Assembly: GCA_945907065.1 (NCBI GenBank)
Contig: CAMDSC010000018.1
Location: 1 to 46,189 of the forward strand
DNA from: Chitinophaga pinensis
GTDB lineage: Bacteria; Bacteroidota; Bacteroidia; NS11-12g; UBA9320
Direction: 5' to 3'
Length of the DNA stretch: 46,189 bases
The notes below the pieces were generated by a model, which made no database searches, was not told the origin of the DNA, and saw only the letters and a list, made by a program, of their open reading frames with translations. Shown one piece after another: positions 452 through 6,475 of the stretch. The position numbers and the translations under genes were made by a program. Position 1 is the stretch's first letter. Every line of letters starts with the position of its first letter.

Positions 452-943
452 ATGAAAAAAACAATGACAATTTTCGGAGTAATATTATTTGCTTCATTCA
501 TTTTTTCAAGTTGTGGAAATAAAGCAGAGAATAAACAAATTCAATCAACTGAAGTAAAAGAAAATAATCAACCGCTGTTACAGCCAGAATTTTTAGGAAA
601 TTATCATGGCATACAACCAAGTTACTATATGAAAAATCAATATGGAGACGATATGTTAATTAATGGACAAAAGGTGTCAGTTCCTTCAATTGACTTTAAG
701 TTTTTAGTAAAAGAAGATGGTGCTGCTAGTTTGCAACAGACAAACCTTGAAGACAATAGCCGATTTTACTATGATGGCACAATCAAGATTATTAAAGATA
801 CCCCCGATATTCTAAAAATAGAATGTTTCTTAAGTGATGGAAAATCTTCTAATCCAACATATACCTTGGCGATTAATAAATCTGATAAAACTGCAATTTG
901 CATCGGTAATAACGAACCTGAATTTAAACTTGAAAAAAAATAA
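452..943 (+). CDS. Small secreted lipoprotein, function unknown
   Basis: A 163-residue protein. A short basic start, a hydrophobic stretch and a lipobox (FSSC, Cys about 21) give a classic lipoprotein signal peptide, so the mature protein should be a lipid-anchored envelope protein. The rest is polar with no recognised domain; residues 40-160 look like a small beta-rich fold (inference). It starts 26 bp after a -7 box and ends 26 bp before the channel gene, so it may be the first gene of that operon. Its first 28 bases from 463 recur with one mismatch at 5073, at the head of a broken gene, which marks the two as relatives or as sharing copied 5' ends. The function is not known. Confidence 0.8.
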   Translation: MKKTMTIFGVILFASFIFSSCGNKAENKQIQSTEVKENNQPLLQPEFLGNYHGIQPSYYMKNQYGDDMLINGQKVSVPSIDFKFLVKEDGAASLQQTNLEDNSRFYYDGTIKIIKDTPDILKIECFLSDGKSSNPTYTLAINKSDKTAICIGNNEPEFKLEKK

Positions 944-969
944 ATTAACCAACTCTAAATTATAATAAA

Positions 970-2886
970 ATGAGAAATTACGCACAAGATTCGATAATAT
1001 CTAACAAAAAAGAACCTAAAAAAGGTGTCATTTCATATAAAAAGTTAATCCATTTTTATTTTGATAATGCAATAAGTAAAACAAAATATTTTATCCTTTT
1101 TTTGCTTCTAATTTCATTTTTATTAGGTTTAATTATGACAGTAGTTCATTATTCAATTAATCAGGATAAAGAGGGCTCTTTCTTTGATAATTGGTGGACT
1201 AGTATTACTACAATTTTAGGAATCGGATCCGGACCAAACTGGACAGATCGTATAATTAACTTTTTATATTGGTCTTTTAGTGTGGCAATATCAGGTTCTA
1301 TTATTGGTTTTATTGCTAAAGGAATCAGTAATTTAGTTGAACAACTTAAAAAAGGCAAGAGTCAAGTTGTTTGCAAAAATCATATTTTGATTTTAGGGTG
1401 GTCTAATAGTATTTTTTCTATTTTAAAAGAATTGTCTATTGCAAATGAAAATATAAAAAATGCGGTTGTTATTATATTTTCAGAATTAGACAATGAAAAA
1501 ATGCAAGATGAAATTGCTGCAAAAGTTGATGTAAAATTAAACTTAAAAATTATTACAAGATCTGGAGATACTAGTAGTCCAATTGAATTAGAAATGGCTA
1601 ATCCAACTGATGCAAAGAATATTATTGTTTTGGGTCAAGATCAAAATAGTGATACAAAAGTAATCACTACTATTTTAGCATTACATTCAATGTTGAAAAA
1701 AACAAAGATTTCCATAATAGCTCAAATAAATGATGCTAAGCATGTAAAAAATATAAGTCAAATAAAAAATATAAATATTATTCCGGTACTCTCAAAAAAT
1801 ATCATTACAAATCTAACAGCACAAACTCTAAGACAAAATGGTATTGGTACCGTTATCCTAGATTTACTTGATTTTGATGGGGATGAAATTTATTTTTCTG
1901 AAATACCTCAACTTGTTGGTAAAACCTATTTAGAAGCGTTACTTTCATTTGATGATTCTTCAGTAATGGGAATAATTGACATTGAAAACCAAACACAACT
2001 AAACCCAGATAATGATACAATAATTAACAAAGGCGATAAACTAATTGTAATTTCAAAAGATGACGATACAGTTATTTATTCTACAGCTCAACTAGCAAAT
2101 CAAAATAATTTTATTCTCCCTGAAGTCTCGTCTGAGAAAAAAGATAATAATATTTTATTTATTGGATGGTCTAGTGTTGGGATTGATATTGTAACATCAC
2201 TAGTTCCTTTTTTAAACTCAACTTCTAAAATAACAGTGGTTTATCTTCCTGAATATGTAGACCTAAACAACATTTCAATTAATATTTATAATAATATAAA
2301 AATTGAATTTATACCGGTTAGCGGATCTGATTTCGATTTGGAAACATTTGTTAAAAAAGGAAATTACAAAGAGATAATGATAATTGGGTATACTGATAAA
2401 CTATCTATTCCAGAAGCAGATACCATGACATTGTTGGAAATGCTTAAGCTTGATAATATCAAACAAAATGAATTGACAAATAAATTTAGAGTAATTGCAC
2501 AAATTTTAGATTCTTCTAAAGCAAAACTTGCAGAATTTACTGAAACGGAAGAATTAATTATTAGTGATAATTTAGTTGCCTTACTAATGTCTCAGTTAAT
2601 TGAAAATCCGGATTTACATTTTGTATTTAACGATCTATTTGATGCAGAAGGTGCTTCCATAAACATGTGCCCGATTGAAGAGTACGCAGAATTGAATACA
2701 GAAATTTCATTTGCTGATTTAGTTTTTACTGCAGGTAAAAGAAACCAATCTGCAATTGGTGTTAAAATTGAAAACACTAACATATCCAATCATACCGAGG
2801 GTATTTTTCTCAACCCAAGCAAAAAAACGAAAATCAATCCCAAAAAAGGAGACCAGATTATTGTAATTAGTTCAACAATATATTAA
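970..2886 (+). CDS. CASTOR/POLLUX-like cation channel with two RCK domains
   Basis: A 638-residue inner-membrane protein. After a cytosolic start there is a membrane helix at about 38-60, a pore-loop region at about 75-92 (WWTSITTILGIGSGPNW), and a second helix at about 97-118. Two Rossmann-like RCK/TrkA-N domains follow, starting at about 137 (HILILGWSNS) and 392 (NILFIGWSSV), each with a TrkA-C-like part. This order matches bacterial relatives of the plant CASTOR/POLLUX channels and Trk-type K+ channels. The filter is not TVGYG, so ion selectivity cannot be called. RCK domains usually gate on nucleotides or cations. The gene ends 5 bp before the ligand-gated channel gene, which implies joint expression. 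Family confidence is high; transported ion and ligand are unknown. Confidence 0.82.
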   Translation: MRNYAQDSIISNKKEPKKGVISYKKLIHFYFDNAISKTKYFILFLLLISFLLGLIMTVVHYSINQDKEGSFFDNWWTSITTILGIGSGPNWTDRIINFLYWSFSVAISGSIIGFIAKGISNLVEQLKKGKSQVVCKNHILILGWSNSIFSILKELSIANENIKNAVVIIFSELDNEKMQDEIAAKVDVKLNLKIITRSGDTSSPIELEMANPTDAKNIIVLGQDQNSDTKVITTILALHSMLKKTKISIIAQINDAKHVKNISQIKNINIIPVLSKNIITNLTAQTLRQNGIGTVILDLLDFDGDEIYFSEIPQLVGKTYLEALLSFDDSSVMGIIDIENQTQLNPDNDTIINKGDKLIVISKDDDTVIYSTAQLANQNNFILPEVSSEKKDNNILFIGWSSVGIDIVTSLVPFLNSTSKITVVYLPEYVDLNNISINIYNNIKIEFIPVSGSDFDLETFVKKGNYKEIMIIGYTDKLSIPEADTMTLLEMLKLDNIKQNELTNKFRVIAQILDSSKAKLAEFTETEELIISDNLVALLMSQLIENPDLHFVFNDLFDAEGASINMCPIEEYAELNTEISFADLVFTAGKRNQSAIGVKIENTNISNHTEGIFLNPSKKTKINPKKGDQIIVISSTIY

Positions 2887-2891
2887 TATTT

Positions 2892-3929
2892 ATGAAAGAA
2901 AAATTAAAAATTTTCATTTGGATTTTTTTTTCAGTCATTTACAATCATAGTATTGTCGCAAATAGTATTAGCAAAGATTCAATTATTACTGTTAAATATG
3001 GTATTTATTTAAAAAAAATAAATCCAGATTTTAAGGAAGGAAAATTTAATGCTGAATTCTATTGGTGGGCAATTTTTAAAAATGACAAAACAAAAACGGG
3101 CATTACTAATGAGGAGATTTTAAATTTAGAATATGTAAATGGATTTGAATGTGAAATAGGCGGTATTACTAAAGAAATACAAGAATCAAAAGAATTAAGT
3201 CCAAATTTGTTCTATTATACAGGGTTTCACCAAGGTGCTTTTTATTTCAATCCTGATTTTAAAATGTACCCATTTGATGTCCAAACCCTTAATATCACTC
3301 TTGAAAACTCACTTTTACCAATTAATAGTTTAAGATTCGTTCCAGATAGCGGTTCCTATTTATTGTCCAAGCAGAAAAAAAATAATTGGGGAATATCGGA
3401 TGACATTATAAATAATAATAATGAAAATTATAAATTTTTTAAAACAGAAATCACATCAGGAATAGGAATTTATAATTCCAATTTTGGAGATCCAACATTT
3501 GAGCCCCAAAGCAAATATGGAAGAATTAATATTGGGGTTTTTATTAATCGCCCTTTTGCTCCTTATATCAGTAAACTTATTATTCCGTTAATGATAATTT
3601 TATTATTAGTTTATTTTGTGTTTTTCTTACCTGCTGAAAAAATTGACATCTCTGCCGGATTAACGGTAACTTCATTATTAAGTGCTATAGCGTTTCAACT
3701 TGCTATATCTGGTGAGTTACCAGAAATTGGTTATATTATTTACATCGATAAAGTATTTTATACGTGTTACTTCTTAATTGCTATTAGTTTAGCCCAATCT
3801 CTTCTTACGTTTTATCTTGACGATAGTGGAGATGAGAAAAAGAAAAGACTTGCGGTTAATCTTGATATATTATTTAGAATTTTATTTCCAATAGTATTCT
3901 TTAGTAGTGTTGTACTTTTTGCAATATGA
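2892..3929 (+). CDS. Pentameric ligand-gated ion channel homolog (prokaryotic Cys-loop superfamily)
   Basis: A 345-residue protein with a signal peptide (about 1-23), a beta-rich extracellular domain and four C-terminal membrane helices. The family hallmark YPFDVQ sits at residues 126-131 in the beta6-beta7 region; the loop cysteines are absent, as in prokaryotic members such as GLIC and ELIC. M1 is about 222-245, containing the family proline (IIPLM). M2, which lines the pore, starts near residue 252 (DISAGLTVTSLLSAIAF). M3 is about 280-303 and M4 about 323-345. Such proteins assemble as homopentamers in the inner membrane with the sensor domain facing the periplasm. The gene starts 5 bp after the RCK channel and overlaps the acyltransferase by 4 bp. 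The ligand is unknown. Confidence 0.85.
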   Translation: MKEKLKIFIWIFFSVIYNHSIVANSISKDSIITVKYGIYLKKINPDFKEGKFNAEFYWWAIFKNDKTKTGITNEEILNLEYVNGFECEIGGITKEIQESKELSPNLFYYTGFHQGAFYFNPDFKMYPFDVQTLNITLENSLLPINSLRFVPDSGSYLLSKQKKNNWGISDDIINNNNENYKFFKTEITSGIGIYNSNFGDPTFEPQSKYGRINIGVFINRPFAPYISKLIIPLMIILLLVYFVFFLPAEKIDISAGLTVTSLLSAIAFQLAISGELPEIGYIIYIDKVFYTCYFLIAISLAQSLLTFYLDDSGDEKKKRLAVNLDILFRILFPIVFFSSVVLFAI

Positions 3930-4969
3930 TAAAAAAAAGAATAGAGTCAATTGATTTTCTTAGAACCATTGCTATTTTAATTATGTTAATAGCAAATGCA
4001 GCTCCATATACATTAAAGGGTCCACATCCTATTTGGTTTAGGATGATTTGTTCATTTGCAGCACCTTTGTTTATTTTTATATCTGGTTTTTCTTTTTTTC
4101 TTTCTTTTAAAAAAAATCAAAATTACAAGCATAAGTTAGTACTAACTTTATATTTACTTCTTTCTGCAATATTTGTAGATGTCGTTATTTGGGGAATTTT
4201 ACCATTTCAAACTTTTGATGTATTGTACCTTATTGCTTTTGGTCAAGCTATTAATATTTTAATTTTTCGTTTAAAATTCCCAATAAAATTATTTATCGCT
4301 TTAATCTTTATTGTTTCCTCACCATTACTTGAAAATTATTTTGGTTACCGATTTAATAATAAAGATTTTAATCTGAATAGTGTATTTTCAAGTGATTTTA
4401 ACTTGTCGGGAGTTTTTCAATTTTCAAGATTTTGCATTGATGGATGGTTTCCTTTAACACCTTGGATAGGCTTTGCTATAATTGGAAGTGTTTCGGCAGA
4501 GTTGTCTGAAAAAATTTCTTTAAATTTAAAAACAGTAAAGTGGGTAAGTTTGATCTTTTTAATTAGTGGATTAGGCGTATTTTTTTCTCAAAACGTAATA
4601 CAATGTGAAAGAGATGGATATTTAGAATTGTTTTATCCACCAACACCACTATTTTTATTAATTGCTTTTGCTTTTATTTTTACAACTTATTCATTTTCTA
4701 TAAAAATGAATTTCTACCTTCATTCTAGATTTAATTATATAAATATATTAGGGCGACATAGTCTATTCATATATATTTTCCATGCCTTTATTATATCTTA
4801 TGTATTTGAATCTTATTTAGTTCCTTCAGGATGTTTTCAATTTGCATTTTTAATGGTTGCTTTTGTAAGTATTTGTATTCTCTTAACAACTTTATTAGAA
4901 CGCATTAATAAAAAAGATTCTTTAAAGTCAATACCTTTATTCATTAAAACCATTTTAGGCTTGAAATAA
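3926..4969 (+). CDS. Multi-pass membrane acyltransferase (HGSNAT/DUF1624-like)
   Basis: A 347-residue, very hydrophobic protein with about ten membrane helices. The start RIESIDFLRTIAILIMLIAN, followed by FAAPLFIFISGFSFF near residue 50, is the signature of the heparan-alpha-glucosaminide N-acetyltransferase-like and acyltransferase-3-like membrane families, which carry acyl groups across the membrane to a sugar or lipid acceptor. It overlaps the channel gene by ATGA, which implies translational coupling, and is the last intact gene of the cluster. The exact acceptor cannot be read from the sequence, and membership of HGSNAT-like rather than generic acyltransferase 3 is a best guess. Confidence 0.7.
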   Translation: MIKKRIESIDFLRTIAILIMLIANAAPYTLKGPHPIWFRMICSFAAPLFIFISGFSFFLSFKKNQNYKHKLVLTLYLLLSAIFVDVVIWGILPFQTFDVLYLIAFGQAINILIFRLKFPIKLFIALIFIVSSPLLENYFGYRFNNKDFNLNSVFSSDFNLSGVFQFSRFCIDGWFPLTPWIGFAIIGSVSAELSEKISLNLKTVKWVSLIFLISGLGVFFSQNVIQCERDGYLELFYPPTPLFLLIAFAFIFTTYSFSIKMNFYLHSRFNYINILGRHSLFIYIFHAFIISYVFESYLVPSGCFQFAFLMVAFVSICILLTTLLERINKKDSLKSIPLFIKTILGLK

Positions 4970-5073
4970 AGTGATGTTTTTTAATGAAAATAAAAAAAAG
5001 TGGAGCTCATAACCCACTCTAAAAAAACGGTAAATAATTAAATAAAAGTGGCGACTACATATAAAAAAAAGTA

Positions 5074-5711
5074 ATGACAATTTTCGGAGCAATATTATTT
5101 GGCTTCATTATTTTAACATCTCCTGGTGGTAATGGTTCCCAAAATACTTCCGATACACAAAATGAAAATACTGTTGATGTTTGTAGATACCTAACAGAAC
5201 CAGTAATTTGGATTGGTCTATTACTAATAAAGATGGTTGTCGAGATGCAATTAGTAAAGAGATTGGTGTTCATAATTGGGAAAAAGTCAATTTTTCTCAA
5301 AATCCGGATTTGAATGGAAAATTTGATGAATTATCAAAAAAATGTACGGTAACAACTGAATTGAAAACTGTAATCGAAGGTATTGATAAAAATAATGTTT
5401 TAGTTAAGGAAATAGGCTCCTCTTATGGATACATTTGGGAAAGTCTTAACAACGAAAACCAAATTTATACTACATCGGCTTTTGAAGGATTAATTTTTCG
5501 CATAACATATTAACTTATGAATGGTAATACTAATTCAGCAGATTTCAAAAAGGTTATTGTCCTTTCAGTTAAGTGGGGTGTAACGAATCCAAATAATACA
5601 GAAGGTGTTATTGAACAAAATAATGTTCCTGTAAGTTGGACGTTCAGTGAGGATTATTTGTCATTGATAAATAATAAAGGAGTTGTGTTTAATAGAATTA
5701 AAATGAGATAA
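5074..5711 (+). pseudogene. Broken paralog of an envelope lipoprotein (frameshift plus in-frame stop)
   Basis: The first 28 bases (5073-5100) match the start of the 452 gene with one mismatch, including ATG ACA ATT TTC GGA. The reading frame opens with a hydrophobic signal (MTIFGAILFGFIILTSPGG) whose lipobox Cys is gone. Sensible polar sequence continues to about 5190 (VCRYLTEP), then moves to another frame from about 5208 (LDWSITNKDGCRDAI onward). That frame is stopped at 5511-5513 but continues as protein-like sequence to 5711 (WTFSEDYLSLINNKGVVF). One frameshift and one stop therefore separate three pieces of what looks like one gene of about 210 codons. A real short secreted protein or separate small ORFs are possible but less likely. 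Confidence 0.6.
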
Positions 5712-6002: not shown

Positions 6003-6323
6003 TCAACTTGTTTTCTGTAAATATTTTTCTTTTAATTTTTTAGAGATAATATCGATAGCTTTTTCGCTAGCTTTATTTGTTAAAAAGTCAGGCAGCCCTA
6101 ATGAATCTACTTCTGGTTTTAAAAACTCTTCATATGCATCTTTTGACATATCAGACACGTGCTTTTCTAATTCTTCGCCGTGCAATTCAGTTTTTGAATT
6201 ATCAACTTTAACTCGATTTACCACTTCTAATGCCCTGTTAGAAATATAAGCCATTTTTAAAGAAACTCCTAAAAATGGAACCCCCCCTAATACACTAATA
6301 AAAAATTTCATCATAATTTTCAT
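6003..6323 (-). CDS. Small hypothetical protein with hydrophobic N-terminus
   Basis: A 106-residue protein on the minus strand. Residues 1-28 are hydrophobic (FFISVLGGVPFLGVSLKMA) and could be a membrane anchor or signal; the rest is charged and probably helical, ending in a Lys-rich tail. No family is recognised. A TATCTTTA box near 6401-6408 on the minus strand, one base off TAnnTTTG, could be its promoter. An alternative start is the Met at residue 4 or 5. It lies among gene remnants, so it may itself belong to an accessory patch. Confidence 0.5.
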   Translation of the reverse strand: MKIMMKFFISVLGGVPFLGVSLKMAYISNRALEVVNRVKVDNSKTELHGEELEKHVSDMSKDAYEEFLKPEVDSLGLPDFLTNKASEKAIDIISKKLKEKYLQKTS

Positions 6324-6475
6324 TTAACTTGCCCTACTCTTATGGATTTTCAGATTTCTCCCCGTTTTTTTTGAGTGGGTTCTGGTCTCCACTTCTCCCT
6401 TGTAAAGATAATAATTGATATATGCATTTTAACTTGCCCATAACTTGTATATAGGCGCTATAAACATTCGCTTTT

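Follow-up and report, generated by a model that had tools for sequence, protein, structure and literature searches.

A rare transferred gene block in Bacteroidota that pairs a pentameric ligand-gated channel with an HGSNAT-type acyltransferase beside a CASTOR/POLLUX-like RCK channel

The pentameric ligand-gated ion channels (pLGICs) of bacteria are relatives of the animal neurotransmitter receptors, yet their natural ligands and physiological roles are largely unknown. In the parts of Tasneem et al. (2004, PMC549065) drawn on here, bacterial pLGICs are found in operons or fusions with PBP-I, PBP-II, Cache and MCP-N domains and with a Na+/H+ symporter, and a role in chemoreception is proposed. 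Two further families bear on the locus described below. For the plant channel CASTOR, a D265N substitution has been reported as non-functional, with current abolished (PMC6697748). Among membrane acyltransferases, the AT3 family is characterized by the motif DxxRx10H, while the corresponding motif of HGSNAT is DxxRx10N (PMC12423673). Members of all three families are encoded side by side near one end of the window, the whole 46,189-nucleotide stretch of DNA that was analysed.

Genes of the locus and their protein families

Four plus-strand genes are closely spaced: a lipoprotein gene at 452-943 (163 aa, with a lipoprotein-type signal peptide and an SSC-G lipobox), a CASTOR/POLLUX-like two-RCK channel gene at 970-2886 (638 aa), a pLGIC subunit gene at 2892-3929 (345 aa) and a gene at 3926-4969 (347 aa) for a TmAT-superfamily (HGSNAT-type) membrane acyltransferase. 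The lipoprotein and RCK genes are 26 bp apart, the RCK and pLGIC genes 5 bp, and the start codon of the acyltransferase sits on the pLGIC stop in a 4-bp ATGA overlap. The original prediction had described exactly this packing, which the open reading frames reproduce in full, and had assigned the two-RCK channel, pLGIC and membrane acyltransferase to families that profile and structure matches confirm. Its view of all four genes as one unit holds for the RCK channel, pLGIC and acyltransferase; it fails for the lipoprotein gene, which lies outside the conserved block and is missing upstream of the RCK gene at a second locus, L004. The real unit is three genes. Their tight packing is not a matter of chance, since the order, the 5-bp gap and the overlap are kept in L004, and the ATGA overlap is kept in genome G462 at 60% channel identity.

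The RCK channel matches Castor_Poll_mid (PF06241) at 5.4e-28 (97.5 bits; cut-off 26.7) and the CASTOR structures 6o6j and 6o7a of the PDB at 1.4e-45, with CASTOR/DMI1 at about 1e-45 and both halves aligning to CASTOR. Its AlphaFold model has helices at 38-63, 71-82 and 91-127 followed by two Rossmann-type (RCK) halves; the pore part consists of two long N-terminal TM helices, forming one hairpin, and a pore helix. Castor_Poll_mid and two tandem RCK domains are thus present, and the four TM segments predicted for plant CASTOR/POLLUX are absent from the model. The filter region, ITTILGIGSGPNW, is missing the CASTOR filter Asp. Where plants have ADSGNHA (AD265SGNHA) and most bacterial relatives LDPGGD, the window and L004 have LGIGSG. 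The notion of TILGIGSG as a K+-channel-like filter was set aside, a close relative (L029) having ILDLGKG, which points to a filter of CASTOR type whose D has changed to G. Because the filter Asp is missing, and current is lost in CASTOR D265N (PMC6697748), neither conduction by the RCK channel nor its ion selectivity is assured.

The pore domain of the pLGIC matches GluCl at 8.5e-11 and GLIC at about 1e-9, and the protein matches NCBIfam LGIC_1 at 3e-16, which is below that model's cut-off. The AlphaFold model (pLDDT 84) aligns in Foldseek over its full length to GLIC, GluCl and GABA-A receptors (about 330 columns, E about 1e-20). A signal peptide is followed by a beta-rich extracellular domain (ECD) and four TM helices, with the ECD forming a beta-sandwich according to both the model and Foldseek. 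At the ECD-TM interface, residues 126-129 make up a YPFD pro-loop in which P127 and D129 are nearly invariant across an alignment of 25 sequences, and the ECD itself aligns with Bacteroidota homologues. M2 carries an Asp at the -2' acid position of GLIC, from which the channel is predicted to be cation-selective.

The acyltransferase matches HGSNAT_cat (PF07786) at 1.5e-18 (67.6 bits; cut-off 22) and Acyl_transf_3 (PF01757) at 3.5e-12, also above cut-off; a search by sequence for a relative of known structure found none. DxxRx10N lies on TM helix 1, DFLRTIAILIMLIAN, and the AT3 (OafA/OafB) motif DxxRx10H is not present, Asn standing in place of its His. A histidine in an HPxW motif (HPIW) is found near the position of HGSNAT H297, and inspection revealed no Asp to match D307. 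In the relative encoded by G462 the alignment shows the active-site His to be replaced, so that catalysis there may differ or be lost. Another related acyltransferase is encoded at L168 (G434 C197) beside small peptide genes; these presumably resemble nitrile-hydratase-type leader peptides.

The transferred block and its surroundings

The block comprising the RCK, pLGIC and acyltransferase genes spans window positions 964-5109 on the plus strand (4.15 kb); its end lies within a repeat, and this repeat runs on into a degenerate lipoprotein gene. Over 4154 bp it is 96.2% identical in nucleotide sequence to positions 6995-11146 of L004, which belongs to another flavobacterial MAG. Gene order, 5-bp gap and overlap are the same there, no lipoprotein gene lies upstream of the RCK gene, and the flanks are unrelated to those of the window. 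Between the L004 contig and the window's genome, lepA identity is only 70%; the hosts are therefore distantly related, and the block moved recently and horizontally as a unit. The GC content of the block is 27%; elsewhere in the window it is 34.6%. Purifying selection has been maintained on all three genes, with dN/dS values of 0.19, 0.26 and 0.32 (0.19 for the RCK channel). A chimeric MAG as the source of the common block is disfavoured: the copies differ by about 4%, the changes show purifying selection, and each contig is coherent. The window contig is genuine, and the genes adjacent to the block on it are present in 6 of 6 congeners. The trio is a rare, horizontally mobile module shared by distantly related aquatic Bacteroidota.

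The interval that runs from tRNA-Asn (75-149) to a thioredoxin-like gene (6540) is variable. In the closest congener, G006, it has other content and is filled with unrelated genes, and the trio is absent from the flanks recovered in five congeners. A protein of 103-106 aa that belongs to no known family is encoded near the block in both settings (window 6003-6323, minus strand; L004 6490-6801, plus strand). The two genes, 72% identical in DNA, lie on opposite sides of the block and in opposite orientations.

The lipoprotein gene is an incidental neighbour of the block, and its candidacy as a member of the system was rejected because it is not upstream of the block in L004. Its product matches no family above cut-off. 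A promoter-like TAnnTTTG box occurs at 418-425, upstream of the gene, and none occurs between 943 and 970; being co-directional with the block, the gene is probably co-transcribed with it in this genome. A remnant of a second lipoprotein gene, frameshifted and with broken frames, follows the acyltransferase at 5074-5711 on the plus strand and has leader and signal-peptide DNA in common with the first (82% identity over 50 nt). The leader pattern has two exact matches, with 0 expected, and in L004, downstream of the block, two lipoprotein genes have the same leader and signal-peptide DNA. At all four places (window 452-516 and 5074-5133; L004 11079 and 11643) near-identical leader/signal-peptide DNA precedes the unrelated mature parts of small lipoproteins, which look as if they had been swapped behind a common leader. 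Insertion of the block through recombination between such repeated leaders is plausible.

Directly after the acyltransferase gene, at 4995-5049 (plus strand), is a degenerate, short-tailed hairpin resembling the DUF805 RNA (RF03081; 25.8 bits, below gathering); copies scoring 36.0 and 37.6 bits, likewise below gathering, lie downstream of the block in L004. A full copy of this Rfam RNA is located at 6327-6397 on the minus strand of the window. There, at L004 11956-12024 and at L159, L160 and L161, the RNA is upstream of small genes, and at least four full copies are present in the window's genome. The short-tailed variant, which is without the second half, sits upstream of lipoprotein genes. 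An earlier identification of the flanking hairpin as an integron attC was replaced by the DUF805 RNA and its short-tailed variants.

Conserved adjacency and candidate functions

A scan with the RCK protein of a genome contig collection in which 84,980 species are each represented by a single genome returned at least 80 CASTOR-like loci. L004 alone among those listed carries a pLGIC and an acyltransferase; for the other 79 among the matches listed, many on short contigs, no relative of either was detectable nearby, and RCK-pLGIC adjacency was rejected as a general pattern. Among 395 Bacteroidota genomes, pLGICs occur in 27, PF06241 matches in 60 (34 of them above cut-off) and strong acyltransferase relatives in three; besides the window's genome, one of these three (G264) has the acyltransferase beside a pLGIC. 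In G462, which belongs to a different class, the gene for a 345-aa pLGIC (60% protein identity) runs by the same ATGA overlap into that for an acyltransferase (37%), and there is no RCK gene upstream of the pair. G264 is a congener of G462 with the same pair, the pLGIC being without its ECD and the acyltransferase cut by the contig end; a similar piece is found at the end of another contig, and the CASTOR-like gene of this genome also lies on a contig other than that of the pair. The L151 locus (455-1009; G264 C2) encodes a pLGIC that is without its ligand-binding domain but whose channel frame is still open, followed by the acyltransferase. G061 has a pLGIC, 52-55% identical, that is alone, and when the class was searched again for closely related pLGICs, only G264 had one.

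Conserved adjacency, which the original prediction took as the mark of a system, is therefore seen for the pLGIC and acyltransferase (window and L004; G462 and G264). It reaches the RCK gene only in L004, where the block is the recently transferred one found in the window as well, and it is not seen for the lipoprotein gene, which is not retained. The pLGIC-acyltransferase pair is the conserved core, because the pair is kept in G462 and G264 and the RCK gene is linked to it only in the recent block. At the level of whole genomes, pLGICs and CASTOR-like channels occur together in 6 genomes where about 1.8 are expected (Fisher p 0.006, from a count by hand that used 27 strong CASTOR-like genomes), but the 6 come from three genera only and so are not independent evidence.

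These observations lead us to favour, tentatively and at somewhat less than even confidence, a rare mobile inner-membrane module whose core is the pLGIC with its translationally coupled TmAT/HGSNAT-type acyltransferase, the RCK channel having been added upstream in the flavobacterial version. The three block genes probably work together. The pLGIC would sense a small periplasmic molecule and, given the Asp at M2 -2', admit cations; the RCK channel would react at its cytosolic face to the ensuing change in ions or nucleotides and reset or propagate a membrane-potential signal. The acyltransferase would use cytosolic acyl-CoA as donor and acylate an acceptor in the periplasm. This acceptor may be an envelope glycan or the ligand itself, which the enzyme would make or remove and so close a feedback loop. 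An enzyme that controls or produces the ligand is favoured, since tight coupling of the acyltransferase to the pLGIC persists where there is no RCK gene. We infer all of the coupling steps between the channels and the acyltransferase. The linear chain originally predicted, in which a periplasmic ligand acts through the pLGIC and then the RCK channel on an acyltransferase that alters the envelope, is weakened by loss of the CASTOR filter Asp and by the non-conserved acyltransferase His. The same two features speak against the module as we favour it; so do the linkage of the RCK gene, which is confined to a single recent transfer family (window and L004), and the solo pLGIC of G061. Its boldest form, a previously undescribed bacterial signalling module with a neurotransmitter-receptor-type channel, an acyltransferase responsible for making or modifying its ligand and a CASTOR-family RCK channel as electrical output, we consider unlikely.

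It is possible, though we are inclined to doubt it, that the functional pair is the pLGIC and acyltransferase, as a chemoreceptor channel and a ligand- or envelope-modifying enzyme, and that the RCK gene is an accidental neighbour in a single transferred block. Such a bystander would fit the overlap kept in G462 without an RCK gene, the CASTOR-like gene on a different contig in G264 and an RCK linkage confined to the window and L004. However, the RCK gene is only 5 bp from that of the pLGIC, the whole trio moved together, and of the three genes it has been under the strongest purifying selection since transfer (dN/dS 0.19). That the genes have no functional coupling, having been packed by chance and carried jointly by one recent transfer, is improbable; the narrow distribution, the solo pLGIC of G061 and the other neighbours of RCK relatives would all agree with it, whereas the recurrence of the same pLGIC-acyltransferase ATGA overlap in a different class, at 60% and 37% protein identity and though each family is rare, would not. 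Sporadic distribution, recent transfer and a variable interval next to tRNA-Asn might recall a mobile defence or antagonism island that is inserted at a variable site beside a tRNA gene and whose channels serve as effectors to depolarise membranes, but this is very unlikely: a known anti-phage system was rejected when PADLOC matched no described defence protein model to any gene of the unit, searches of viral contigs found no relatives of either channel, those of plasmids no pLGIC and those of phages no acyltransferase relative, the interval has no recognised integrase or nuclease, and the ligand domain of the pLGIC faces outward. The block as a whole likewise had no match in plasmids; CASTOR-like genes are present on nine large plasmid records.

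Comparison with described systems

The pairing of a pLGIC with an acyltransferase is rare, mobile and, as far as a limited literature search extends, new among known pLGIC operons; a full-text search with limited literature coverage found no earlier report of it. A conserved enzyme partner offers a handle on the ligand of such a channel, as the product or the acceptor of the acyltransferase becomes a candidate. Should the RCK partner conduct, the flavobacterial block would be a case, in bacteria, of two channel families acting in series.

Like the CASTOR, POLLUX and DMI1 Ca2+-regulated Ca2+ channels (PMC6697748), the RCK channel has Castor_Poll_mid, two tandem RCK domains and a pore without TVGYG. 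It departs from them in having two TM helices rather than the four predicted in plants, a Gly for the filter Asp (D265) and a bacterial operon context. The acyltransferase resembles HGSNAT and the TmAT superfamily (PMC12423673, PMC11199644) in its PF07786 match, in DxxRx10N on TM helix 1 and in a His in the periplasmic loop that follows; unlike HGSNAT, it has no equivalent of D307, and the His is not kept in the pLGIC-linked relative of G462. With the bacterial pLGICs GLIC, ELIC and DeCLIC, as treated in the parts of PMC549065 drawn on here, the pLGIC shares its fold and domain order, a sporadic horizontal spread and an operon with partner genes. It differs from the fusions described in those parts in being without a fused periplasmic sensor domain, and from the operons in its partners, since the TmAT acyltransferase and the two-RCK channel are not named there.
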